Part shown: positions 3,288-20,539 of the stretch, in pieces
How the letters are laid out: each line of letters starts with the position of its first letter
Numbering within the stretch: the first letter of the stretch is position 1
IMG/VR virus record: IMGVR_UViG_3300032242_001296
Coordinates: 1-20,763 of that record
DNA from: a virus
Length of the DNA stretch: 20,763 nucleotides
Reading direction: 5' to 3' (one strand)
Position numbers and translations under genes: made by a program
The notes under the pieces: model-generated
Told to the model about the DNA's origin: nothing
Database searches by the model: none
The model's input: only the letters and a program-made list of their open reading frames with translations

Positions 3288-3514
3288 TAGTGTCTCGTAT
3301 CTTTTGGCTTATTGAGTTTTTCTACAATCTCTTGCTGCTCTTCTTCAGATAGCTCTTCAAGGGCCATAGCGTCTGCCAGTATTTCGCCAGTCTCTACCAT
3401 CTGTACAATGCCGCGCATTAGGGCGTTAAGTTCTTCTTGGGTAAATGAACCATCAGCTAACAATTCATCAGCCCAGCCCTCTTCAAACTCTACTGTTTTC
3501 TTTTTCTTAATCAT
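3287..3514 (-). CDS. Hypothetical acidic protein, 75 aa
   Basis: Begins MIKKKKTVEF and is then strongly acidic (EEGWADELLADG; ALEELSEEEQQEIVEKLNK), mostly predicted helical. No known domain. It overlaps the PIG-L gene by 4 nt and the HExxH gene by 1 nt. The charge pattern resembles DNA-mimic or small partner proteins, but that is only a guess. Confidence 0.7.
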   Translation of the reverse strand: MIKKKKTVEFEEGWADELLADGSFTQEELNALMRGIVQMVETGEILADAMALEELSEEEQQEIVEKLNKPKDTRH

Positions 3515-4017
3515 TTCTTTTCTTCCTTATAGTAAGACACGCCAGAGTTTGCATGAATAAGAATGGACTCATAGTGTCGTGGTAATTCTTTTAACATAAT
3601 GTTTGTTGGGTACTGCTTGTCTTGTATGTCTAATGAAAAGTAAACCTTTGATACATTAAAATCTTTGACTGCATTGTGCACAACTTGGTGGTGCGGGTGC
3701 CCATACTCACCTTCTTCATTGTGCGTCAGTATAAAGTCGTACTTGATTGCCTCATTGCGAATGGCACGTATGGCTTCATCTGCGCACCATGTCTTTAAAC
3801 TCAATGATCCTAAGTCACGGCCATGATCTTTAAATCCTAAAAACTTTGTCTTGATGCCACGCCTGCACCAATATCTTGCCATCTCACGGGCGCGTTTGTT
3901 CCACCAGTGATGTGTCAAATAAACAATGCTCCACTCATATTCAGGATGCGCGTCCATATACGCACTGGCAAAGATCACGCAATCATCCGGGTGGGCAACG
4001 GCAACAAGGGCTTTCAC
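3511..4017 (-). CDS. PIG-L/LmbE family deacetylase
   Basis: 168 aa, starting with GTG at 4017, which shares its G with the upstream TAG stop. The two hallmark motifs are present: AHPDD (residues 8-12) and THNEEGEYGHPHHQVVH (98-114). These provide the Asp/His ligands and catalytic residues of Zn-dependent de-N-acetylases acting on GlcNAc-type substrates. The protein is shorter than many bacterial members (about 220-250 aa) but ends after a complete-looking core. In a phage it could act on a sugar or nucleotide-sugar; the substrate is not evident. No signal peptide, so it is cytoplasmic. Confidence 0.88.
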   Translation of the reverse strand: MKALVAVAHPDDCVIFASAYMDAHPEYEWSIVYLTHHWWNKRAREMARYWCRRGIKTKFLGFKDHGRDLGSLSLKTWCADEAIRAIRNEAIKYDFILTHNEEGEYGHPHHQVVHNAVKDFNVSKVYFSLDIQDKQYPTNIMLKELPRHYESILIHANSGVSYYKEEKK

Positions 4018-5215: not shown

Positions 5216-7525
5216 TTAAAATACTCCTTCGTCAAATGTTTCAATGCTGTCTATGTATTTCTGCGCTTTAGCATTGAGTTTAACGCCCATGTATACCTGT
5301 GAGCGCTCGCCGTTAATTTGCAGTTGATAAGATGTTACGTATTTCTCTTGCGTGGCTGCTAAGAATCTACGTTTAAATGCCTGTTCTGTTCCTGGGCTCA
5401 TTGACTTCTTAAGCGCCCAATGTTTCCAACAAGCAAACACATCTTCTTTACGCGCCCAACTCTTAGGATCAAACTCCAGCGCATCATTAGCAAATGGTTT
5501 AATTGGATTACCTAACTCTTCCATCAAATCTAAATACTCTTTACCCGAAGTTGGTTGTAAGAAATGGCCGCCGCGTACTAGTCTACGCTTTAATCCTTCC
5601 ATTGCCCAGTTAAAAATGCCGCTGAGTTCTTGGTCTAACTTGTGAGATAGATCGGTGTCCTCATTGTCAAAGAATGATTTTGTCATCTTAAACACAATCA
5701 TGCGGCCGGTTAAAGCGTTAGAATTTTCAGTTAACTGCAGCACCTCGTTTGAATAGATAACTATTCGCGTTGGGAGGTAGCCGTTCCAGCTTTCTTTGTT
5801 TTTTCTGTTGACAGTAATAGTATCTCCACCAACAATACGCAAAAGCTGAGACACAACAGCGCTACGGTTACGTTCAGGCGCCCGAGCATCAGTGAAAGAA
5901 GCGAGCAGCTTGCCAAGCCAAGGTTGAAGACCGAATGTATCACAAAGCTCTCCTAGTTCCGGTGCCACGGTATTGTGCTGCCCAAGCAGCGATACTAGCA
6001 CCTTATTAATAGTTCCCTTGCCTGAGCGGCGTGGTCCAATCAGGTTAAAGAATTTCTGCTGACGTGTGTCGCCGGAGATGATGTAACCCATCATTTCCTG
6101 TAATGCTTCGACTGATTCTCGATCATCAGGCCAGATGTCATGTAAGAACTTTATCCAAGTTGGGCACTGAGCCGCTGGGTTATATGCAAACGGCAAACTG
6201 TTTTGTGTAAAAAAGCCTTGTGAGTGTGGTAACAAGATAGAATCCTCCAAATGAAATATACCGTTCATCAAACTGATTAGTTTAGAAGCAGCTGGTTTAG
6301 CGGCAGCATAGTCTTCTAACCAAATCGGTGGCTTGGTGTTCGGGTGGTTGGCTAAGTGAATAATAGATTGAATTGCGTCGATCGCGGCACTTACGCTCGC
6401 AGGTGATGGGTTAAACGGAGCTAGTGATCCCTGCTTAGCTGGCTTTTTGCACTTGTCTAAGAATGCATATACCTTTGAGCGAATGGTTGCATCTTCTATT
6501 ATTTCGTAGTGTGTACCTACATAAATGTAAAACTCATCACCATAATGCACAAGCGAGTAACCTTCCTCACTAGTGTAGTAACTATCTAAAAAAGTACGCG
6601 CGTGGTTCATTGCTCCTGAGTCGAGCACAATCTCGCCTCTAGCTAACGCATCTTCACGCACCTTAGCATTGGCCATGAAGATCAATGAGCGCAGTGTGGC
6701 ACCCGATCCTTTAAACGTTCTCCACTTAGTGTCACATGAGTAGTCACCTGTGGTGGTGTATTCAGCGCTCTGTGCGCTCCATCTATCCCAGCACTCCAAT
6801 GCTTCTACATCACCACTAAACTGGTGGTGCAGGATCTGGCCAATCTTAAGCCAATCGTTGTAGTGGCAGTCAGGATCAAGTCTTGAGAGCAGCTCAGTCT
6901 CTACGCGATTGATGTCCCATCCTTCTAGCGGCGCTGTGTAGTCTGCAAACGCATCACCGGTGCGACGCATAGTACGCTCAGGAATGATTGCGGTGAAGTC
7001 TTGGGGTGCGTCCGGGACACTACCTGACAAGTGATGACCAGTCACTGTAAAGTAGCGTCCCGTCGCGTAAGCCTCAAAACCGATTGAATGATCTGCATGG
7101 GAGGCAAAGTCTTCAGAGCGGGTAAATATCTTTACACCGGTGCCTGAGGGTGACACTTCCATGTAACCTTGAATTGAGTTGGCTAAATGCTGCATTGCAG
7201 CATTTGTGAAACCGATGTGAGGGTCATAGCAGTCATCTAGGTCGATGCCTACTAGGTTGTCTTCTTGTGTAAACACAAAGCCAATCCCGGCAAACTTATC
7301 GGGGTTGGATTGATACGCATCTTGGACACTGAGAAAATCAGTCCAGTGCTCGGGGTTTGTCGATGAGGCAGCTAGGCCATTGGTGCGTGCTGGCACTTTT
7401 GCCCAGGTGGTGTGCTCTCCCTCTCCCTTTTCTAGGAGGCGCCATAGAACCCAGCGTGGGGTTTTCTTGAGCTCAATTGGGATGTTATCAAATTGAACTG
7501 GTAAGCAGGTTGGTCTTGTGGTCAT
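5216..7525 (-). CDS. Bifunctional primase-polymerase / D5-P4-type helicase
   Basis: 769 aa. The N-terminal archaeo-eukaryotic primase (PrimPol) part carries GIDLDDC with catalytic acids at 95-98, SPSGTGVK (125-132) and FEAYATGRYFTVTGHH (150-165). Residues about 205-285 resemble a primase C-terminal linker (NDWLKIGQILHHQF, Trp-rich). The C-terminal half is a D5/P4-family SF3-type helicase with Walker A GPRRSGKGT near residues 494-502, then SFTDAR and a YSNEV segment. It is the main replication initiator and helicase encoded in this window. ATG 7525 follows an AAAGGA site. The box GCATTATTGTA ends 20 nt upstream of the ATG, so this gene heads its own operon. It abuts the 50-aa gene downstream. 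Confidence 0.93.
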   Translation of the reverse strand: MTTRPTCLPVQFDNIPIELKKTPRWVLWRLLEKGEGEHTTWAKVPARTNGLAASSTNPEHWTDFLSVQDAYQSNPDKFAGIGFVFTQEDNLVGIDLDDCYDPHIGFTNAAMQHLANSIQGYMEVSPSGTGVKIFTRSEDFASHADHSIGFEAYATGRYFTVTGHHLSGSVPDAPQDFTAIIPERTMRRTGDAFADYTAPLEGWDINRVETELLSRLDPDCHYNDWLKIGQILHHQFSGDVEALECWDRWSAQSAEYTTTGDYSCDTKWRTFKGSGATLRSLIFMANAKVREDALARGEIVLDSGAMNHARTFLDSYYTSEEGYSLVHYGDEFYIYVGTHYEIIEDATIRSKVYAFLDKCKKPAKQGSLAPFNPSPASVSAAIDAIQSIIHLANHPNTKPPIWLEDYAAAKPAASKLISLMNGIFHLEDSILLPHSQGFFTQNSLPFAYNPAAQCPTWIKFLHDIWPDDRESVEALQEMMGYIISGDTRQQKFFNLIGPRRSGKGTINKVLVSLLGQHNTVAPELGELCDTFGLQPWLGKLLASFTDARAPERNRSAVVSQLLRIVGGDTITVNRKNKESWNGYLPTRIVIYSNEVLQLTENSNALTGRMIVFKMTKSFFDNEDTDLSHKLDQELSGIFNWAMEGLKRRLVRGGHFLQPTSGKEYLDLMEELGNPIKPFANDALEFDPKSWARKEDVFACWKHWALKKSMSPGTEQAFKRRFLAATQEKYVTSYQLQINGERSQVYMGVKLNAKAQKYIDSIETFDEGVF

Positions 7526-7573: not shown

Positions 7574-7592
7574 TATTTCACATTATGAAATA
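7574..7592. promoter_or_regulatory. Palindromic operator-like site
   Basis: TATTTCA-CATTA-TGAAATA has perfect 7-nt arms and a 5-nt centre. Its core TTTCACATTATGAAA matches 13 of 15 positions of TTTCACATTGTGAGA in control region B (14413-14427). It lies 18 nt upstream of the primase promoter-like box, a suitable place for a repressor or activator. Confidence 0.45.
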
Positions 7593-7714
7593 GTGCAAGG
7601 GTTACTAGGGTTGCAAGGCTTATTTAGTCATTCCTGTATGCTTACGCTTTTTATTTAAAATATTTAAAAAATAATAAAAACGTAGTGCAACCCTAGTAAC
7701 CCTAGGACTTGCAC
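7593..7714 (-). repeat. Control element A: inverted repeat with 70-nt AT-rich spacer
   Basis: Arms GGGTTACTAGGGTTGCA (7599-7615) and its complement (7686-7702) are perfect over 17 nt, with extra GTGCAA matches at the outer ends. The 70-nt spacer is almost all A/T near the upstream arm. A second copy with the same arm type, the same 70-nt spacing and the same TAAATAAGCCT next to one arm lies at 14673-14783 in the opposite orientation. It stands upstream of the primase operon. It could be a regulator-binding region or a replication origin. Confidence 0.7.
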
Positions 7715-7933: not shown

Positions 7934-8307
7934 TTATCTTCCTCCTTGATTATAAAAAAGGTATCTTTTACTACGGGCGCGACTTCGTCCCAGTTATCCG
8001 AGTGGCCATAATCCCCACGAATAGAGCTCATGCGCTCATCCTTTCTAAATTCTGGTTCGACTGACCACCATGTTAGGCTAGCATCTTTATACTCCAGCCA
8101 ATCATCGTTTGCTTGAAATACCGGATGGTTCATTCCGGCAATGTCGACTGTGCATACAACATCAGAAAGCCGTATCCACTCTCTTTTGGTAAATCCTTTG
8201 GTTCTCACTAGGCCAACACGATTACGCGCCTCTATGAACCGTTTATAGGCTTTTAACTGTGCTTCCGTTGCCGAATTAGGCCATAAGGCCTGTTTTTCAA
8301 TTTTCAT
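7930..8307 (-). CDS. Hypothetical protein, 125 aa
   Basis: Soluble protein rich in Trp and Asp (e.g. WLEYKDASLTWWSVEPEFRK). It starts in an ATGA overlap with the sigma factor gene, so the two are likely made together. A role tied to the sigma factor is possible from position only. Confidence 0.75.
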   Translation of the reverse strand: MKIEKQALWPNSATEAQLKAYKRFIEARNRVGLVRTKGFTKREWIRLSDVVCTVDIAGMNHPVFQANDDWLEYKDASLTWWSVEPEFRKDERMSSIRGDYGHSDNWDEVAPVVKDTFFIIKEEDK

Positions 8308-8873
8308 TCTTCTGACTCCTCTTGTAGGTTCTCGTTATTTAGGTTATCTAGTGAGATTGGCTCGCGGCTAATATAGCCTTTGAGTTGATGAATGCGTGTT
8401 GCCGTTGTGCCAACGATCGTTGCTAATTCGACAACAGTCGGTTTACGCCCGAGCACCTGTGATAATGCCTGCTCGTTGTAATTCATGCGTTTTAGCTCTT
8501 CCATCACATTGATGGGTAGGCGAATGATATTGGAGGTATTGTCTAGCTCTCTTCTAACGCCACGTTCAATGAATGGGCGCGCGTATCCCGCAAACGGTAC
8601 ATTCTTATGGGGTTTCCATCGCTTGGCCGCAACAAGCAGCATCTCGTTGCCAATGGCCAGTATGTCTTCTAATGGCATTTTGCCATGTTGCCATGCCGTC
8701 ATCTTTGTAACTACATGGGGTACAAATCGTAAATTGTGGGTAACTAGTTTTTCTAGGGCATCATCGTCACCTTGGCCAATCAGCGCGGCCAGTCGGTGCT
8801 CTTCTTCGACTGATAAAGTCGGTATCCCGTATAGTGATTGAAGGTAGTCTGTCTTAATATCATTTTCGCTCAC
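8304..8873 (-). CDS. Phage RNA polymerase sigma factor lacking region 4
   Basis: 189 aa. Residues 18-55 resemble region 1.2 (LSVEEEHRLAALIGQGDDDA). Residues 69-110 resemble region 2 (EDILAIGNEMLLVAAKRW, then FAGYARPFIERGVRREL). Residues 117-165 resemble region 3 (RLPINVMEELKRM; LGRKPTVVELATIVG, then a short HTH). After EPISLDNL it ends in an acidic tail at residue 189. Full sigma factors would continue into region 4, which is missing, recalling T4 gp55. It likely directs host RNA polymerase to phage promoters. GTG start at 8873, in a GTGA overlap with the upstream gene, with AAGG nearby. Confidence 0.85.
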   Translation of the reverse strand: MSENDIKTDYLQSLYGIPTLSVEEEHRLAALIGQGDDDALEKLVTHNLRFVPHVVTKMTAWQHGKMPLEDILAIGNEMLLVAAKRWKPHKNVPFAGYARPFIERGVRRELDNTSNIIRLPINVMEELKRMNYNEQALSQVLGRKPTVVELATIVGTTATRIHQLKGYISREPISLDNLNNENLQEESEE

Positions 8874-14057: not shown

Positions 14058-14104
14058 TGTGATAAATCCTCCAATAAATTAAAAATAAATGTACAACAGT
14101 CTCA

Positions 14105-14131
14105 ATATTACTATGGTTTTCCGACTGTCAA
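14105..14131 (-). promoter_or_regulatory. Putative sigma70 promoter for the leftward cassette
   Basis: A consensus -35 TTGACA (14131-14126) is followed by a 15-nt spacer and TAATAT (14110-14105), 4 of 6 matches to -10. It lies 48 nt upstream of the first gene (14057), which has a good GGAGG. The 15-nt spacer is short, so activation may help. A CTAGGG-AAAA-CCCTAG palindrome lies right beside the -35. Confidence 0.6.
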
Positions 14132-14132
14132 T

Positions 14133-14192
14133 CTAGGGAAAACCCTAGGTTTGCAAACTAAAAACCCTAATAGGGTAAACCCTAATACGGGA
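14133..14192. repeat. Cluster of CCCTAG/CCCTAA palindromes
   Basis: CTAGGG-AAAA-CCCTAG (14133-14148), the palindrome GTTTGCAAAC (about 14150-14159), ACCCTA-A-TAGGGT and further ACCCTAA copies follow each other within 60 nt. The same CCCTAG half-site builds the arms of elements A and B. Likely operator cluster for the adjacent leftward promoter. Confidence 0.55.
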
Positions 14193-14286
14193 GCGCGTTC
14201 GCTTTACATTCTGTCATTGTCGCGCCGCACCTACCCCCCATCGCTCGCGTGCGCGTCATGTTGCATCGCCGCATCGCCGCGCCGTC

Positions 14287-14404
14287 CTATGTGAGTGAGT
14301 GCTCACTAACTTACGTGGCCGCGACCAATGTGAGTGAGTGCTTACTAACCTATGAGCCGCGCCTACCTATGTGAGTGAGTACTCACTAACCTATATGGCC
14401 GCCT
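14287..14404. repeat. Three ~40-bp direct repeats with internal palindrome (iteron-like)
   Basis: Three units begin TGTGAGTGAGT at about 14290, 14329 and 14370 (39- and 41-bp steps) and continue to TAAC.TA..GGCCGC-like ends. Each contains AGTGAGTRCTYACT. Copy 3, AGTGAGTACTCACT, is a perfect 14-bp palindrome; copies 1 and 2 deviate by one or two bases. The spacing of four turns would put bound proteins on one helix face. Plausible initiator or repressor sites. Confidence 0.7.
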
Positions 14405-14412
14405 AGGCAGCG

Positions 14413-14427
14413 TTTCACATTGTGAGA
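14413..14427. promoter_or_regulatory. Palindromic site matching one in control region A
   Basis: TTTCACATTGTGAGA contains the perfect palindrome TCACA-T-TGTGA. It is 13 of 15 identical to TTTCACATTATGAAA before the primase operon. Probably binding sites of the same regulator. Confidence 0.45.
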
Positions 14428-14589
14428 TGCATTCCCACCATGTGCAATAGGGGGCTTTTTCTATTAGGGTATACACCTATTTGGGTCCCGCGGCGAGGGG
14501 GCGGGGCGGGGGCCCCACAAACCGCAAGCTCGCAAAAATCCCCGGTTTTGTAAAAAGTCGACTTCCTAAAATTTTTTTTTAAAAAATTG
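14428..14589. other. Non-coding part of control region B
   Basis: No gene with a credible start or composition is visible. Contents: a GC-rich stretch with four G-runs (GGG 14483-14485, G5 14497-14501, G4 14503-14506, G5 14508-14512), then AAGTCGACTT, then an A/T run near 14567-14587. The abrupt change from G-rich to A/T-rich fits a DNA-melting region. Confidence 0.5.
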
Positions 14590-14655
14590 CTATATAAATC
14601 AATACCTTGCACCGTGTCCTTTACTCCTGCGGGGTGGTACCCTATATAAATCAAT
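14590..14655 (+). promoter_or_regulatory. Direct repeat CTATATAAATCAAT, promoter-like
   Basis: The identical 14-mer occurs at 14590-14603 and 14642-14655. Before the second copy, TTTACT (14620-14625) and a 17-nt spacer lead to TATATA (14643-14648), a modest sigma70-like arrangement facing the rightward operon. The copies are 52 bp apart. Confidence 0.4.
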
Positions 14656-14672
14656 GACTTACAGAGGAAGTG

Positions 14673-14783
14673 CTAGGGTTACTAGGGTTGCATACCCTTT
14701 TTACTCTTTTTAAATAAATTTTAAAAAAATATATTTATATCTGGTAATGGTTAAATAAGCCTTGCAACCCTAGGAACCCTAGG
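14673..14783 (+). repeat. Control element B: second copy of inverted repeat with 70-nt spacer
   Basis: Left arm CTAGGGTTACTAGGGTTGCA (14673-14692) pairs with TGCAACCCTAGGAACCCTAG (14763-14782) at 19 of 20 positions. The spacer is again 70 nt and AT-rich, and ends TAAATAAGCCT exactly as in element A. The orientation is opposite to A, so each copy points to its own operon: A to the primase, B to packaging genes. Confidence 0.7.
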
Positions 14784-14830
14784 ACCAAACCTTGTTTTTG
14801 TGCAACTAGGACGGGTTTGCTGGTATTTGT

Positions 14831-14840
14831 GCATTATTGT
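14831..14840 (+). promoter_or_regulatory. Promoter-like box GCATTATTGT before packaging operon
   Basis: TTTGTGCATTATTGTTTGT ends 1 nt before ATG 14845. Same core as 7556-7546, 17567-17578 and 767-756. If it were a -10-type element, the transcript would start at or near the ATG (leaderless); otherwise it may be part of a larger site. Confidence 0.5.
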
Positions 14841-14844
14841 TTGT

Positions 14845-15153
14845 ATGAACAAATATGTTTACCAAATTCAGGGCGCACTGGAAAGTGTCATGGGAAAGTT
14901 CCTAGGCTTTCGAGTTCTGGTATGCAATGTGGACTTCTTGGACATGGTCGATGTGCCTGTAGAGATACTGGACTATGAGACAACCAAGTATTTGCAATTT
15001 CGTTTAAGCATTACTTCAGAGGCGTTGGACATCCAGCGCTTGCCCGCTGAAATACAAAATAGGATTAGAGCGCCGTTAGGGCGTTGGCTGGACCGTTGGG
15101 TCCTAGAGAACTTTTATGGCAATACTAGCAACAGAAAAAGTGTTAACCCTTGA
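14845..15153 (+). CDS. Hypothetical protein, 102 aa, first gene of rightward operon
   Basis: MNKYVYQIQGALESVMGKFL, then a mixed alpha/beta sequence ending in a basic Arg/Trp region (APLGRWLDRWVLENFYG). A GTG at 14800 would add 15 hydrophobic residues, but it lies upstream of the promoter-like box and has no good ribosome site, so I start at ATG 14845. Position before the terminase would suit a small packaging protein, but no terminase small-subunit features are visible. Its last 38 nt overlap the Hint gene. Confidence 0.72.
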   Translation: MNKYVYQIQGALESVMGKFLGFRVLVCNVDFLDMVDVPVEILDYETTKYLQFRLSITSEALDIQRLPAEIQNRIRAPLGRWLDRWVLENFYGNTSNRKSVNP

Positions 15154-16108
15154 CTGGTGGAAACCGGCTAGCAAATTAGTGATAGGGGACTATGTGTTTG
15201 ATAAGGACGGTAAGATTGTCCAGGTCAAGCTCGTTCAGCAATATCATTCCGAGCAATGTGTGCGGGTGTCCTTTAACGACCATCTGTCTGTAGCTGGGGA
15301 CACCAAGCTCAACTTTATGGTAGAAGACCTTAAGTACCGCAATCGGCTGCATGAGTACGTTGGCCGCTTTAGATTCAAACGCCCACTAAAGCAAAAGTCT
15401 GCTGATGACATGGCAACCACCCCACTTAGGGACAAGCGATCTCGCCTTGTCTATTCGGTGCCAACCACGCGCCCATTAGAACTACCCCACCAAACCCTAC
15501 CTGTGCCGCCATTCATCTTTGGCTTCTGGTTCTTTAACAGAAAGCCTGGCGGACGCTTCAGTGCCCCAACAAAATACCACGATGAGATCCTTGCCCGCTT
15601 CAAAGACTATGGGTACAAGGTAAAACTTGGCAAAAAACTGACTGGTGGCCGTAGAGAGTTTACTGTGTCCCCCAGCATTGAGTCCCAACTCGCGCCCAAC
15701 ATCCCTAACAAGGTTACAAACAACTACTTGCTTGCCAGTCCAGAGCAACGATTAGAGCTGCTGCAAGGAATTATGGTAGCTAAGTCCTCACAATACAACG
15801 AAAGAGAAGATAAGTTTCGGTTTTCATCACAGCATCTACCCACCATCCTTAGAATTCAGTTGCTTGTGGAGTCTCTTGGCTCTAAAACACGCATAGAAAG
15901 TGCAGAAACCATCAATTCTTATCGACTTTTCTTTAAATCTCGACTACAATTGGTCAGTAATCAGGTATCTCCACCCATTAAAGTGCACTTAGGGCGCCGA
16001 TACATCACAAAGATTACGCCGATTGCGCCACAAATGTGTGTTTACGTAGAAACAACATCCAAAGATAGTACTATCTTAGTAGGAGAAGGCTTTATTCCAT
16101 GTCGTTAA
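15116..16108 (+). CDS. Free-standing Hint (intein-like) protein, apparently splicing-inactive
   Basis: 330 aa resembling a whole intein without exteins. N-terminal block A-like: TEKVLTLDWWKPASKLVIGD (6-25), then VFDKDGK. Block B position GDTKLNF (61-67). LAGLIDADG-like helix RLELLQGIMVAKSSQ (212-226). C-terminal block F/G-like: RRYITKITPI (294-303), then VETTSKDSTILVGEGFIPCR (311-330). Missing are the first Cys/Ser (residue 2 is Ala), the block B His, the endonuclease acid after LQGIM and the terminal His-Asn. It should therefore neither splice nor cut. It overlaps the terminase start by 10 nt. A structural or DNA-binding role beside packaging is possible. Confidence 0.75.
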   Translation: MAILATEKVLTLDWWKPASKLVIGDYVFDKDGKIVQVKLVQQYHSEQCVRVSFNDHLSVAGDTKLNFMVEDLKYRNRLHEYVGRFRFKRPLKQKSADDMATTPLRDKRSRLVYSVPTTRPLELPHQTLPVPPFIFGFWFFNRKPGGRFSAPTKYHDEILARFKDYGYKVKLGKKLTGGRREFTVSPSIESQLAPNIPNKVTNNYLLASPEQRLELLQGIMVAKSSQYNEREDKFRFSSQHLPTILRIQLLVESLGSKTRIESAETINSYRLFFKSRLQLVSNQVSPPIKVHLGRRYITKITPIAPQMCVYVETTSKDSTILVGEGFIPCR

Positions 16109-17544
16109 CCCCAGAAAACGAAGTAGTACTCAAAAAATTCATTGAGTCCAAAAAACATTGGCCCAAACCCATGCTTGACCTGATGACTTGGCAGGCAAAG
16201 TGGAAGTTGCAAGCCCTTGAACACCAAAAGGAGCCGGTAGACGGCGAGTATGATACGTTTCTTATGTTGGCTGGTCGAGGATCCGGGAAGACGCATACGG
16301 CTAGTCATTGGATTGGCATTCGTGCTGCTACTTTTGACAATACGCGATGGCTGGTCACAGCCCCGACCTCCAACGATATACGCGCAACTTGTTTTGAGGG
16401 AGACTCCGGACTTATTAATATCATCCCCGCGTCACTTATTCGAGACTACAACAAGTCCCTCTTTGAAATTACGCTCCACAACGGATCCATCATCCAGGGC
16501 ATCCCTGGGTCAGAGCCAGAACGCTATCGTGGTAAGCAATACCATGGAGCTTGGTTTGACGAGCTGTGTGCGTTTGATTACATCGACGAAGCCTACGATG
16601 GAGTACAGTTTACCCTCCGTCTTAAAGATGCCCGCATCCCTCGAGTGCAGCAGATTATTACCACCACTCCAAAACCCAAAGAGCTCATCGTTGATCTCAA
16701 CGAGGGTAAAGTAGGTGGTGACGTCTATGTTGCAAATGCCTCATCCTACGACAACAGAGCCAACCTCTCAGAGACGTTCTTTAAACAGCTTGAGACGTAT
16801 GATGGCACCGACATTGGTAGACAAGAGATTTATGGTGAGATCCTTGACCCAGAGGCAGCGGGTATCATCAAGCGTAAGATGTTCCGCCAATGGCCCGCCT
16901 CTAAGCCCACACCAAACCTTGAGTATGTGATTGCCAGTTACGATCCGGCCACCTCAGAGAAAACAATGAACGACCCAACGGCTTGTACAGTGTGGGGTGT
17001 GTTTGACAGAGAGGACGCTGGTACTTGTGTAATCTTGCTAGACGCATGGGACGCCCACCTGTCATACCCAGAGTTGCGTAAGAAAGTTATTGCCGATTTT
17101 AAGGAAGTAGTCTACGGCGCTGACAATGATTTTGGTAAAGGCAAAAAGGCTGACTTAATCCTCATGGAAGATAAGTCCGCTGGTATCTCACTAATCCAAG
17201 AACTGCAAGGTGCCAATGTGCCCGTCAGGGGATATAACCCAGGGCGTGCCGATAAGGTACAACGACTCAACATTGTGGCCCCCTTGGTATCCAAAGGCAA
17301 AGTGTTCATTCCAGAAGACGCCACCCAAAAAGGTGAGTTTGCCGATTGGTCTAAAAGGTTCCTAAGGCAAGTATGCTCGTTTCCTGAAGCTGGGGGCCAT
17401 GATGACTACGTAGACTCCTTGTCGCAGGCATTACGCGTATTGCGCGATTCTGGCTGGTTACAGCTTGATCCATTGCCTGCAAGGGACTATGATTACGCAG
17501 ATGATGACTATGCCAAGAAGTTTAACAACCCATATAGCCAATAA
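16099..17544 (+). CDS. terL: Terminase large subunit
   Basis: 481 aa. ATPase: Walker A GRGSGKT (59-65), Walker B GAWFDEL (150-156, with Asp154 and Glu155) and the coupling motif TTTP (188-191). RNase H-like nuclease: Asp282 in SYDPA, Glu357 in LMEDKSAG and Asp435/436 in HDDYVD (434-439), so both activities look intact. It packages DNA into the prohead through the portal and cuts concatemers. ATG 16099 lies within the end of the Hint gene. No intein interrupts it. A terminase small subunit was not recognised. Confidence 0.95.
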   Translation: MSLTPENEVVLKKFIESKKHWPKPMLDLMTWQAKWKLQALEHQKEPVDGEYDTFLMLAGRGSGKTHTASHWIGIRAATFDNTRWLVTAPTSNDIRATCFEGDSGLINIIPASLIRDYNKSLFEITLHNGSIIQGIPGSEPERYRGKQYHGAWFDELCAFDYIDEAYDGVQFTLRLKDARIPRVQQIITTTPKPKELIVDLNEGKVGGDVYVANASSYDNRANLSETFFKQLETYDGTDIGRQEIYGEILDPEAAGIIKRKMFRQWPASKPTPNLEYVIASYDPATSEKTMNDPTACTVWGVFDREDAGTCVILLDAWDAHLSYPELRKKVIADFKEVVYGADNDFGKGKKADLILMEDKSAGISLIQELQGANVPVRGYNPGRADKVQRLNIVAPLVSKGKVFIPEDATQKGEFADWSKRFLRQVCSFPEAGGHDDYVDSLSQALRVLRDSGWLQLDPLPARDYDYADDDYAKKFNNPYSQ

Positions 17545-17656: not shown

Positions 17657-20539
17657 ATGCCAATCCCACAATTACCGATTCAAAATGGTGCTAACTTGCC
17701 GGGTCTTGAGGAGCATCAAGATCCACAAGAAGCAAAAGACCAAGATGAAGCCATGGATTACTATGAAGAGGCACTTGGATTAGACTCCGAAGATGTCGAA
17801 CAAGAAGTAATTGAAATGGAAGATGGTTCGGTTGTAGTTAATTTTATTCCAACCAAAAGCCCCAAAGAAGCTCCAGAATTTTATGCCAACTTGGCAGAAG
17901 TGTTTGACGACGACGTTCTTCAATCACTGGCATCTGAATACCTTGACCTTATTGATGTTGATAAAGAGTCACGTAAGCAGCGCGACAAACAGTACGAAGA
18001 AGGTTTACGCCGTACAGGTTTAGGTAAAGACGCGCCCGGTGGTGCTACTTTTGATGGTGCATCAAAAGTAGTTCATCCAGTAATGGCTGAGGCCTGCGTA
18101 GACTTTGCAGCATCCGCATCAAAAGAACTTTTACCCCCAGATGGTATTGTTAAATCAAACATCAAAGGTAATGCTAATAAAGAAAAAGAAGATACAGCCT
18201 CACGTAAGGTTGACTTCATTAACTGGCAGCTAACTGAACAAGTTCCAGAATATCGTGACGAGATGGAGCAGCTGCTGACCCAGCTACCTCTCGGCGGTTC
18301 CCAATTCCTCAAGTGGCGTTTTGATTTAGAACAAAAGCGTCCTACTTGCGAGTGGGTAGCCATTGATAACATTTATCTTCCCTATGCTTCTACAAACTTC
18401 TACACATCCCCACGTGTAACTGAAGTACAAGACATTACAGAAGACACATTCTTACAACGCGTTGAAGCAGGTATCTACAAAGATATTGATACAGAGTATA
18501 GCTCTGATGCTCCGCTAACAGAACAAACTGGCGCACAAAAAGCCAACAACAAAATTGAAGGCAAAGAAGATCCATCTAAAAACATAGACGGTTTGCGTCG
18601 TGTTTATGAGATTACTTGCTTTATGCGTCTTGATGACGATAACGAGACCGATGGTCGTCGTGCTCCGTACATCATGACCATTGATGAAACAACAAGTAAA
18701 GTAGTGGCGTTATACCGTAACTGGGAGTGTAATGATGAGAAGCTCGAAAAGCTGGATTGGTATGTTGAGTTCAAATTCATTCCTTGGCGCGGCGCTTACG
18801 CTATTGGTTTACCCCATCTTATTGGTGGTCTCTCTGCTGCTCTTACTGGCGCTCTACGTGCTCTACTCGACGCTGCTCATATTAACAACAGTCAAACTTT
18901 ACTTAAGCTCAAAGGCGGACGTATTGGTGGACAAAGTGACCGCATTGAGCCAACACAAGTAATTGAAATTGAAGGCGCCCCTGGCGTTGATGATGTACGT
19001 AAATTGGCAATGCCAATGCCGTTTAATCAGCCATCTTCTGTGCTGTTTAATTTGCTTAGCTGGTTAACTGATGCAGCTAAAGGCGTAGTTACTACATCTG
19101 AAGAAAAGATTGGCGAAGCAAACAACAATATGCCTGTGGGTACAGCTCAAGCTCTGATCGAGCAAGGCGCTAAAGTATTCTCAGCAATTCATGCACGTCT
19201 GCATCGCAGCCAAGCTAAATCATTATCAATTATCTCTAGGTTAAACCATTGGTATTTGCAGGACATGGACAACCAGTCTGGCACAGAGATTGAAGTACGT
19301 GACTTTGCGTACAACAATGACGTGCGCCCTGTATCCGATCCTAACATTTTTTCTGAAACGCAACGTGTTGCACAAAACCAAGCCCTCTTACAGATGGCTA
19401 CCTCAGCACCTCCGGGAATGTTTGACATTCGTGCTGTCTATCGCCGCGTTCTTGGACAACTAAAGATTCCAGCAATTGAAGAAGTGTTACCAAACCCATT
19501 AGGCGCAAAAGAATCTAACCCTGCTTTGGAAAACGTAGCGATGACCATGGGTCGTCCAGCTGCTGCTTACCCAGATCAAGATCACTTAGCCCACATTAAG
19601 ATTCACTTAGAATACGCAAGCAACCCAGCCTACGGTGGCAATCCTGTCGTTGGTCCTGTGTTCTCACCACAAGCTCTACAACACATCAAGCAGCATTTAA
19701 CATTGCATTATCTGCAATCTATGCGTTCTTATGTTGCACAAGCTGAAGGTGGGCGCGATACGTTAGAACTACATCAAGAAAAACCATTGGATGTAGAAGC
19801 ACAGCAAGCCTTGGCTATTGCCTCACAATTAGTTTCACAAGAGTCCCAGCAAACCCTTGGACCTTACTTACAACAAATTCAAGCTCTGGCACAAAAAGTA
19901 CAACAAGCTCAGCAGGCTCAACAGCAACAAGCTGCTGAATCTGATCCTACTGCTCAGGTTATTCTTAAAACTCAAATGGCTGAGACACAGCGCAAACAAG
20001 CTGAATCTCAAGCCCGTATGCAACTTGAGCAACAAAAAGATCAACAGACTTACCAGCTTAAAATTGCCGAGTTACAGCAAAAAGTTCAAGAATTGCAAGC
20101 TAAGTACCAAACACAAAGCACCGTTGATTCTAACCGTAATGCAACTCAAATTGCTATGGCAGACATTAACAACGCTTCGCGTGAGCGTGTGGCTTCAATT
20201 AACGCTGGTGCCCAGTTAGGTGCAGATCAGATGGCTATGGCCCATGAGCAAAACCAAACAGCTTTGGAAGCATCACATGCCGCTCAGCAAGAAATTCGCC
20301 AGCATGGTTTAGAAATAGAACAACAGGCATTTCAAGCACAAGCCCAACAAGTTCAACAACAAATTGTCGCGCAACAAGCACAAAACCAAGCAGCACAACA
20401 AGCGGCGCAGCAGGCACAACAAACCGGGTTAGAGCACGCGGCAGCAATGCAGCAAGCTGATCAAGCGCACCAACAAACACTACAACAACAAGCAGTAGCA
20501 GCACCACAACCAACAACACCCCCAACAGGAGCAATTTAA
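17657..20539 (+). CDS. Portal protein with Gln-rich C-terminal extension
   Basis: 960 aa. The N-terminal ~75 residues are very acidic. Residues about 110-690 show portal-like features: GLGKDAPGGATFDGASKVVHP, VDFAASASKELLPPDG, a P22-type helix-rich middle and NNNMPVGTAQALIEQGAK, where the stem or tunnel loop may lie. From about residue 735 the sequence becomes helical and Gln/Ala-rich, a coiled coil at about 765-830 (e.g. KQAESQARMQLEQQKDQQ) and a tail with QQAQ repeats (about 880-960), perhaps a barrel as in P22. A dodecameric ring through which TerL pumps DNA is expected. No clear ribosome binding site before the ATG. Confidence 0.85.
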   Translation: MPIPQLPIQNGANLPGLEEHQDPQEAKDQDEAMDYYEEALGLDSEDVEQEVIEMEDGSVVVNFIPTKSPKEAPEFYANLAEVFDDDVLQSLASEYLDLIDVDKESRKQRDKQYEEGLRRTGLGKDAPGGATFDGASKVVHPVMAEACVDFAASASKELLPPDGIVKSNIKGNANKEKEDTASRKVDFINWQLTEQVPEYRDEMEQLLTQLPLGGSQFLKWRFDLEQKRPTCEWVAIDNIYLPYASTNFYTSPRVTEVQDITEDTFLQRVEAGIYKDIDTEYSSDAPLTEQTGAQKANNKIEGKEDPSKNIDGLRRVYEITCFMRLDDDNETDGRRAPYIMTIDETTSKVVALYRNWECNDEKLEKLDWYVEFKFIPWRGAYAIGLPHLIGGLSAALTGALRALLDAAHINNSQTLLKLKGGRIGGQSDRIEPTQVIEIEGAPGVDDVRKLAMPMPFNQPSSVLFNLLSWLTDAAKGVVTTSEEKIGEANNNMPVGTAQALIEQGAKVFSAIHARLHRSQAKSLSIISRLNHWYLQDMDNQSGTEIEVRDFAYNNDVRPVSDPNIFSETQRVAQNQALLQMATSAPPGMFDIRAVYRRVLGQLKIPAIEEVLPNPLGAKESNPALENVAMTMGRPAAAYPDQDHLAHIKIHLEYASNPAYGGNPVVGPVFSPQALQHIKQHLTLHYLQSMRSYVAQAEGGRDTLELHQEKPLDVEAQQALAIASQLVSQESQQTLGPYLQQIQALAQKVQQAQQAQQQQAAESDPTAQVILKTQMAETQRKQAESQARMQLEQQKDQQTYQLKIAELQQKVQELQAKYQTQSTVDSNRNATQIAMADINNASRERVASINAGAQLGADQMAMAHEQNQTALEASHAAQQEIRQHGLEIEQQAFQAQAQQVQQQIVAQQAQNQAAQQAAQQAQQTGLEHAAAMQQADQAHQQTLQQQAVAAPQPTTPPTGAI

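Follow-up and report, generated by a model that had tools for sequence, protein, structure and literature searches.

A free-standing gene derived from a class 3 intein, without splicing and nuclease residues, lies directly upstream of terL in a group of freshwater phages

Organization of the locus

We analysed a stretch of virus DNA of 20,763 bp (the window), in which the replication region runs leftward and the late operon rightward. The late operon, on the plus strand, consists of an ORF of 102 aa (14845-15153), the gene studied here (15116-16108; hereafter the Hint gene), terL (16099-17544) and the portal protein gene (17657-20539). The Hint gene begins with ATG and has 330 codons, encoding a protein of 330 aa (the Hint protein). 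It overlaps the ORF before it by 38 nt and terL by 10 nt, each time in a different frame, and its stop codon lies inside the start of terL. The preliminary description had presented it as fused into the terminase operon; the genes do overlap, but they are not fused and share no frame. The same description had reported an intact 330-codon gene overlapping terL, and this was borne out, with 127 distinct intact homologues found in IMG/VR, far more than chance would give for such an ORF.

The terL gene is uninterrupted and contains no intein; its Walker A motif, GRGSGKT, is empty at the P-loop position where phage class 3 inteins insert. The members of the family are not in frame within a host protein and have their own start and stop, with terL in another frame. 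An active intein with a frameshift fusion to terL is out, since terL is complete and always in the other frame and no extein is present.

The 102-aa companion ORF is conserved. Its fold search gave a best Z of 4.6 with no clear fold match, and a search for its relatives outside Hint gene loci matched the query's own contig only. In one sub-clade (L024 at 1351, L027 at 4251 and L028 at 5848, plus strand), the companion ORF is missing and is replaced by a PqqA peptide gene about 150 bp upstream of the Hint gene (Pfam PqqA, E 6e-11). This gene is a phage-borne PQQ precursor, which points to methylotrophic beta-proteobacterial hosts. In another relative, L039, the remnant of an inserted HNH-type ORF (5494-6000) separates the companion ORF from the Hint gene. 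On the minus strand of the window, the early region contains a gene for a PIG-L type deacetylase (3511-4017; Pfam PF02585, E 1.6e-11), and a sigma-factor-like gene lies at 8304-8873 (phrog_351, E 1.4e-24); the product of the latter is a possible activator of late genes.

The intergenic region between the divergent operons (14058-14841, plus strand) holds many palindromic repeats and is a candidate control or recognition region. A 47-nt repeat with AGTGAGnnCTCACT-like palindromes occurs there three times, about 40 bp apart (14276-14402), and related palindromes are abundant at the same place in relatives. Inverted repeat clusters surround an AT-rich spacer before the primase gene (7592-7710) and before the late operon (14668-14785), and the same repeats stand at both sites in the window and in several relatives. 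These twin clusters are candidate replication origins or control regions. A further motif, TGCATTATTG, lies shortly upstream of the primase gene (7557, minus strand), the companion ORF (14830, plus strand) and the portal gene (17566, plus strand), and one related genome has 8 copies, mostly near gene starts; it is possibly a phage promoter element.

Fold and descent from class 3 inteins

The AlphaFold2 model of the Hint protein, built with a family alignment of 28 sequences, had a mean pLDDT of 89.3. In Foldseek, its top match was PI-SceI over the whole chain (E 5.7e-14), and I-DmoI matched the inserted LAGLIDADG part. The class 3 intein MchDnaB-1 matched the model with a VIA Z of 19.5 (1.8 A over 128 residues), from residue 2 to residue 330, and hedgehog and other inteins ranked next. 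The full Hint scaffold with a LAGLIDADG-like insertion that had been proposed from the sequence was thus recovered by structure prediction. At the level of sequence, the protein matched phrog_15, the intein-containing large terminases, in PHROGs (E 3e-11), and tblastn retrieved phage inteins (best 6e-19). A Pfam scan with the single sequence gave no match, and phmmer against the PDB gave chance ribosomal matches only.

Four parts follow each other along the gene, all on the plus strand. The Hint N-terminal part covers residues 1-72 (15116-15331) and the Hint C-terminal part residues 286-330 (15971-16105), and the Hint fold with blocks A, B, F and G is present in the family. Between them lie a basic linker of residues 73-130 (15332-15505), which has a net charge of +9 and the family-specific motif KYRxR...FRRPLK, and the LAGLIDADG (DOD) domain of residues 131-285 (15506-15970), in which both motifs and the fold are present.

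In a profile-profile comparison of the family with 11 real inteins, residues 2-330 aligned with intein residues 1-329 (100%, E 6e-39). The nearest TerL inteins are those of Synechococcus phage B23, Gordonia phage YungMoney, Mycobacterium phage LittleE and Escherichia phage ELT3; others include the DnaB intein of Brevibacterium phage Rousseau and the RecB intein of Zeeculate. Several of these insert directly after the P-loop GK. They carry the signs of class 3 as laid down in the WCT definition (PMC3196547), namely a non-nucleophilic first residue in most, a His-x-Trp block B, a Cys in block F and a Thr-His-Asn end. Ala2 of the family pairs with Ala1 of the inteins, and the Cys/Ser/Thr nucleophile at residue 1 is absent, as in class 3. 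Because the nearest inteins are of class 3 and naturally lack Cys1, its absence is no sign of decay. The first Cys had earlier been counted among the lost residues, which was a misreading; by the alignment with class 3 inteins, the absence is inherited and no loss took place. The Hint gene accordingly reads, in these alignments, as a start codon followed by a class 3 intein, the final residues of which lie on the terL start codon.

The other residues that had been described as missing are indeed gone: block B His, the nuclease acids and the terminal His-Asn are absent in 126/126 of the distinct full-length homologues that were aligned for all residue counts. The block B His (B:10) is replaced by Leu65 in 122/126 and by Met or Phe in the others, and the block B Trp (B:12, residue 67, Phe in the window) by Phe in 96, Leu in 29, or Ile. 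The terminal Thr-His-Asn is absent in every homologue, and x-Cys(-x) and a stop are found instead, x-Cys-x in the window. In LAGLIDADG motif 1 of the window (PPFIFGFWFFN), Asn141 takes the place of Asp, and this position is N, A, S or T in 125/126, mostly Asn. In motif 2 (LLQGIMVAK), Asp is replaced by Lys223, with K, R or N in 126/126 and Lys or Arg in 125/126. By the ungapped profile register, the block F:4 position is His310 (His in 114/126). The invariant Cys308 lies two residues from it and could be the heir of F:4 only if the loop has a two-residue insertion. The control consisted of 41 class 3 inteins embedded in TerL and taken from the same collection; they keep His-x-Trp (41/41), THN (41/41), GDG or GNG (40/41) and D-x-D-G (39/41).

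On the one hand, the family shares with class 3 inteins from the TerL, DnaB and RecB genes of phages the Hint and LAGLIDADG parts from end to end, the Ala start, the block spacing and the FIP-x end. On the other hand, it is free-standing without an extein frame, and it has lost the block B His and Trp, the THN and the nuclease acids. Most probably, a LAGLIDADG-bearing phage intein became a free-standing gene with a Met before residue 1 and a stop at its last residues, on the start of terL, and splicing and cutting were lost while the gene was retained.

Distribution, inheritance and selection

In a large group of bacterial viruses from fresh water, the Hint gene stands directly before terL. 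A second scan gave 288 related stretches, and the best 80 of these were kept. Where loci were fetched on terL alone, the Hint gene was present at 80/80 of them, whole or cut by the contig end. At every locus terL followed directly downstream. The median dN/dS of the Hint gene was about 0.08, between that of terL (0.04) and that of the companion ORF (0.14), in agreement with the earlier view of a decay-free, selected gene. Purifying selection acts on both domains. By segment, all values fell within 0.05-0.11: 0.05-0.07 for Hint, 0.11 for the linker and 0.08-0.09 for LAGLIDADG, with the lowest in the Hint parts (0.054-0.065). Distances correlated between Hint gene and terL (0.69), Hint gene and portal (0.69), and terL and portal (0.63), and this congruence speaks, as far as sequence distances can tell, for vertical inheritance of the Hint gene.

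Pseudogenised relatives, which would speak against a selected role, were looked for and were rare. Broken copies occurred on three contigs, and in two cases the break is at a contig edge. L080 (the same contig as L131) has an in-frame TAA at codon 274, L190 has frameshifts at a contig edge, and L057 has an inverted chimera, likewise at a contig edge. A scan of bacterial genomes for the Hint gene yielded two contigs, of one beta-proteobacterial MAG only. A pseudogene or a sequencing artefact is ruled out by the dN/dS and the number of intact homologues. One may still consider a relic being lost or a mobile homing element, for homing genes often adjoin terminase genes and the three broken contigs would fit. 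However, the low dN/dS, the presence at all terL-selected loci, the distances congruent with the neighbours and the loss of the nuclease acids in every homologue weigh against it. Sporadic distribution and mobility, the homing trait of LAGLIDADG genes, were not seen. Taken together, the dN/dS, fixation, congruence and scarcity of broken copies make a strong case against both a relic and an active homing element, and we give this explanation hardly any likelihood.

The marks of a domesticated homing element, namely origin from a homing element, immobility and retention by selection, were all found here. The gene is inactive, free of decay, selected and fixed beside terL, and therefore domesticated, as had been suggested at the outset. 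We hold it to be highly probable that this is a domesticated class 3 intein that has become an ordinary phage gene with splicing and cutting lost. On the sequence comparisons above, a gene so strictly preserved must presumably serve a new job.

In the next phages by terL identity, MW202545 (53%) and Caulobacter phage GB2A (43%), terL is preceded by a TerS gene and the Hint gene is absent; the latter was found in 0/80 further relatives of MW202545. The terL of this sister clade is likewise free of inteins. Because the nearest terL relatives have no Hint gene, the simplest account would be a single gain or release of the gene at the base of its clade, with terL genes of intermediate identity lying outside the sample. 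Just upstream of terL, the sister phages L060 (2445-3113) and L259 (about 540-1300) carry another TerL-like ORF, of about 220-250 aa, which has the ATPase part only.

The position before terL raises the matter of TerS. The Hint protein matched no TerS family in the Pfam and PHROGs searches. Assembled contigs of 64-68 kb encode an HTH protein of 131 aa that matches several TerS families (two examples, with weaker matches besides), on the other strand and far from terL. Since related genomes have a TerS-like gene at another site and the sister clade lacks the element, the Hint protein is not simply TerS, and a plain replacement of TerS is out.

Possible roles of the Hint protein

Because the genes overlap, co-translation of the Hint protein with TerL is likely, and the two would be translationally coupled. 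The Hint protein has a pI of 9.1-9.9 in all copies, with positive charge in the linker and the LAGLIDADG part. With Lys or Arg at the second catalytic Asp, cleavage would end and DNA binding could remain. The LAGLIDADG saddle may have been kept to bind DNA without cleaving it, with the Hint fold as a rigid, possibly protein-binding, platform, so that the Hint protein would act with the terminase as an accessory marking or holding phage DNA in packaging. For this full explanation, a domesticated class 3 intein acting as a packaging accessory, we see nearly an even chance. That the protein is a non-cleaving DNA-binding accessory of packaging or of the late operon is a tentative proposal, but the one we favour over the alternatives below. 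A bolder reading, which appears doubtful, is that the dead intein became central to packaging, or to protection from homing, in a widespread clade of freshwater phages, and that its leftover DNA recognition is used beside, or against, the gene that such inteins invade. Against the packaging accessory count the TerS-like protein encoded at another site and the phages nearest by terL, which package their DNA without the Hint gene. A search of terL for a binding site by synonymous conservation likewise gave nothing stronger than the portal control: terL codons 70-76 (16306-16329) have unusually uniform synonymous codons (p 0.014), and this patch was discarded because the control was equally strong (p 0.018).

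Selection is strongest on Hint and not on LAGLIDADG, and the DNA-binding module may therefore not be the main thing kept. The Hint protein could instead be a partner of TerL (a chaperone, inhibitor or motor cofactor) through protein contact of the Hint fold without DNA binding. The constraint on the Hint parts, the strict linkage to terL and the co-translation suggested by the overlap would suit such a partner. However, the partial correlation of the Hint gene with terL given portal was 0.46, no higher than that with portal given terL (0.46), so the mirror-tree test for a Hint-TerL-specific link was not specific, and the terL of the sister clade works without the Hint gene. We regard such a partner as distinctly unlikely.

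The repeats bring in another candidate, a regulator of transcription for the late genes and perhaps those of replication; its dead LAGLIDADG domain would bind the repeats before its own operon in the manner of WhiA. The repeat-rich region lies directly upstream, GTGAG-N0-4-CTCAC occurs at 0.59/kb in the region upstream of the Hint operon versus 0.004/kb elsewhere, the same repeats precede the primase gene in the window and some relatives, and the protein is basic. However, the palindromic repeats vary from phage to phage and are often present at one site only, the primase-helicase or the phage sigma factor would be equally good binders, and WhiA relies for DNA binding mainly on an HTH domain, which the Hint protein lacks. 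The repeats could equally mean replication origins and are thus not tied to the Hint protein. A regulator is, in our view, rather unlikely.

Alternatively, the dead nuclease may occupy the site in the phage's own terL that inteins target, and so block invasion by active TerL inteins. The nearest inteins lie in TerL or other genes, several just after the P-loop GK, the terL genes of the clade are uninterrupted, and a dead nuclease can still bind. The sister clade without the Hint gene is, however, equally intein-free, the Hint protein diverges fast and terL does not, and the P-loop shows no unusual synonymous conservation. An anti-homing guard is accordingly very improbable.

The Hint protein belongs to a class that is known in kind from HO and WhiA. 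Yeast HO is a domesticated, non-splicing, free-standing Hint/LAGLIDADG gene derived from an intein, in which the nuclease is kept (PMC7282813). HO and the WHO elements share this free-standing, intein-derived, non-splicing build with the phage family, but have an active nuclease and a zinc finger, neither of which the family has. WhiA (DUF199) contains a catalytically dead LAGLIDADG domain reused by the host and binds DNA by its HTH (PMC3781837). The dead, reused LAGLIDADG domain is common to both, whereas the HTH, C-terminal in place, occurs in WhiA only and the Hint domain in the phage family only. The HK97 HNH gene, as discussed in PMC10448857, is homing-endonuclease-like, lies upstream of the terminase and serves packaging, and it offers a precedent for the packaging accessory; it shares the place in the packaging module with our family but has another fold and an active nuclease. 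Arthrobacter Arth_1007 is an inactive, nearly free-standing class 3 intein (PMC3196547); it is a lone pseudogene, whereas the phage family is conserved and under selection. In a limited search of the open-access literature, no description of this dead-intein family was found.

In summary, inteins are usually viewed as active or decaying, but the intein described here is dead in both respects and yet fixed and strictly conserved across 127 distinct phage sequences. The Hint and LAGLIDADG scaffold can accordingly be retained for a new purpose without either chemistry. If the packaging role is true, the terminase module would gain a new kind of component; if the protein guards terL, it would amount to a defence against homing that the phage itself encodes.
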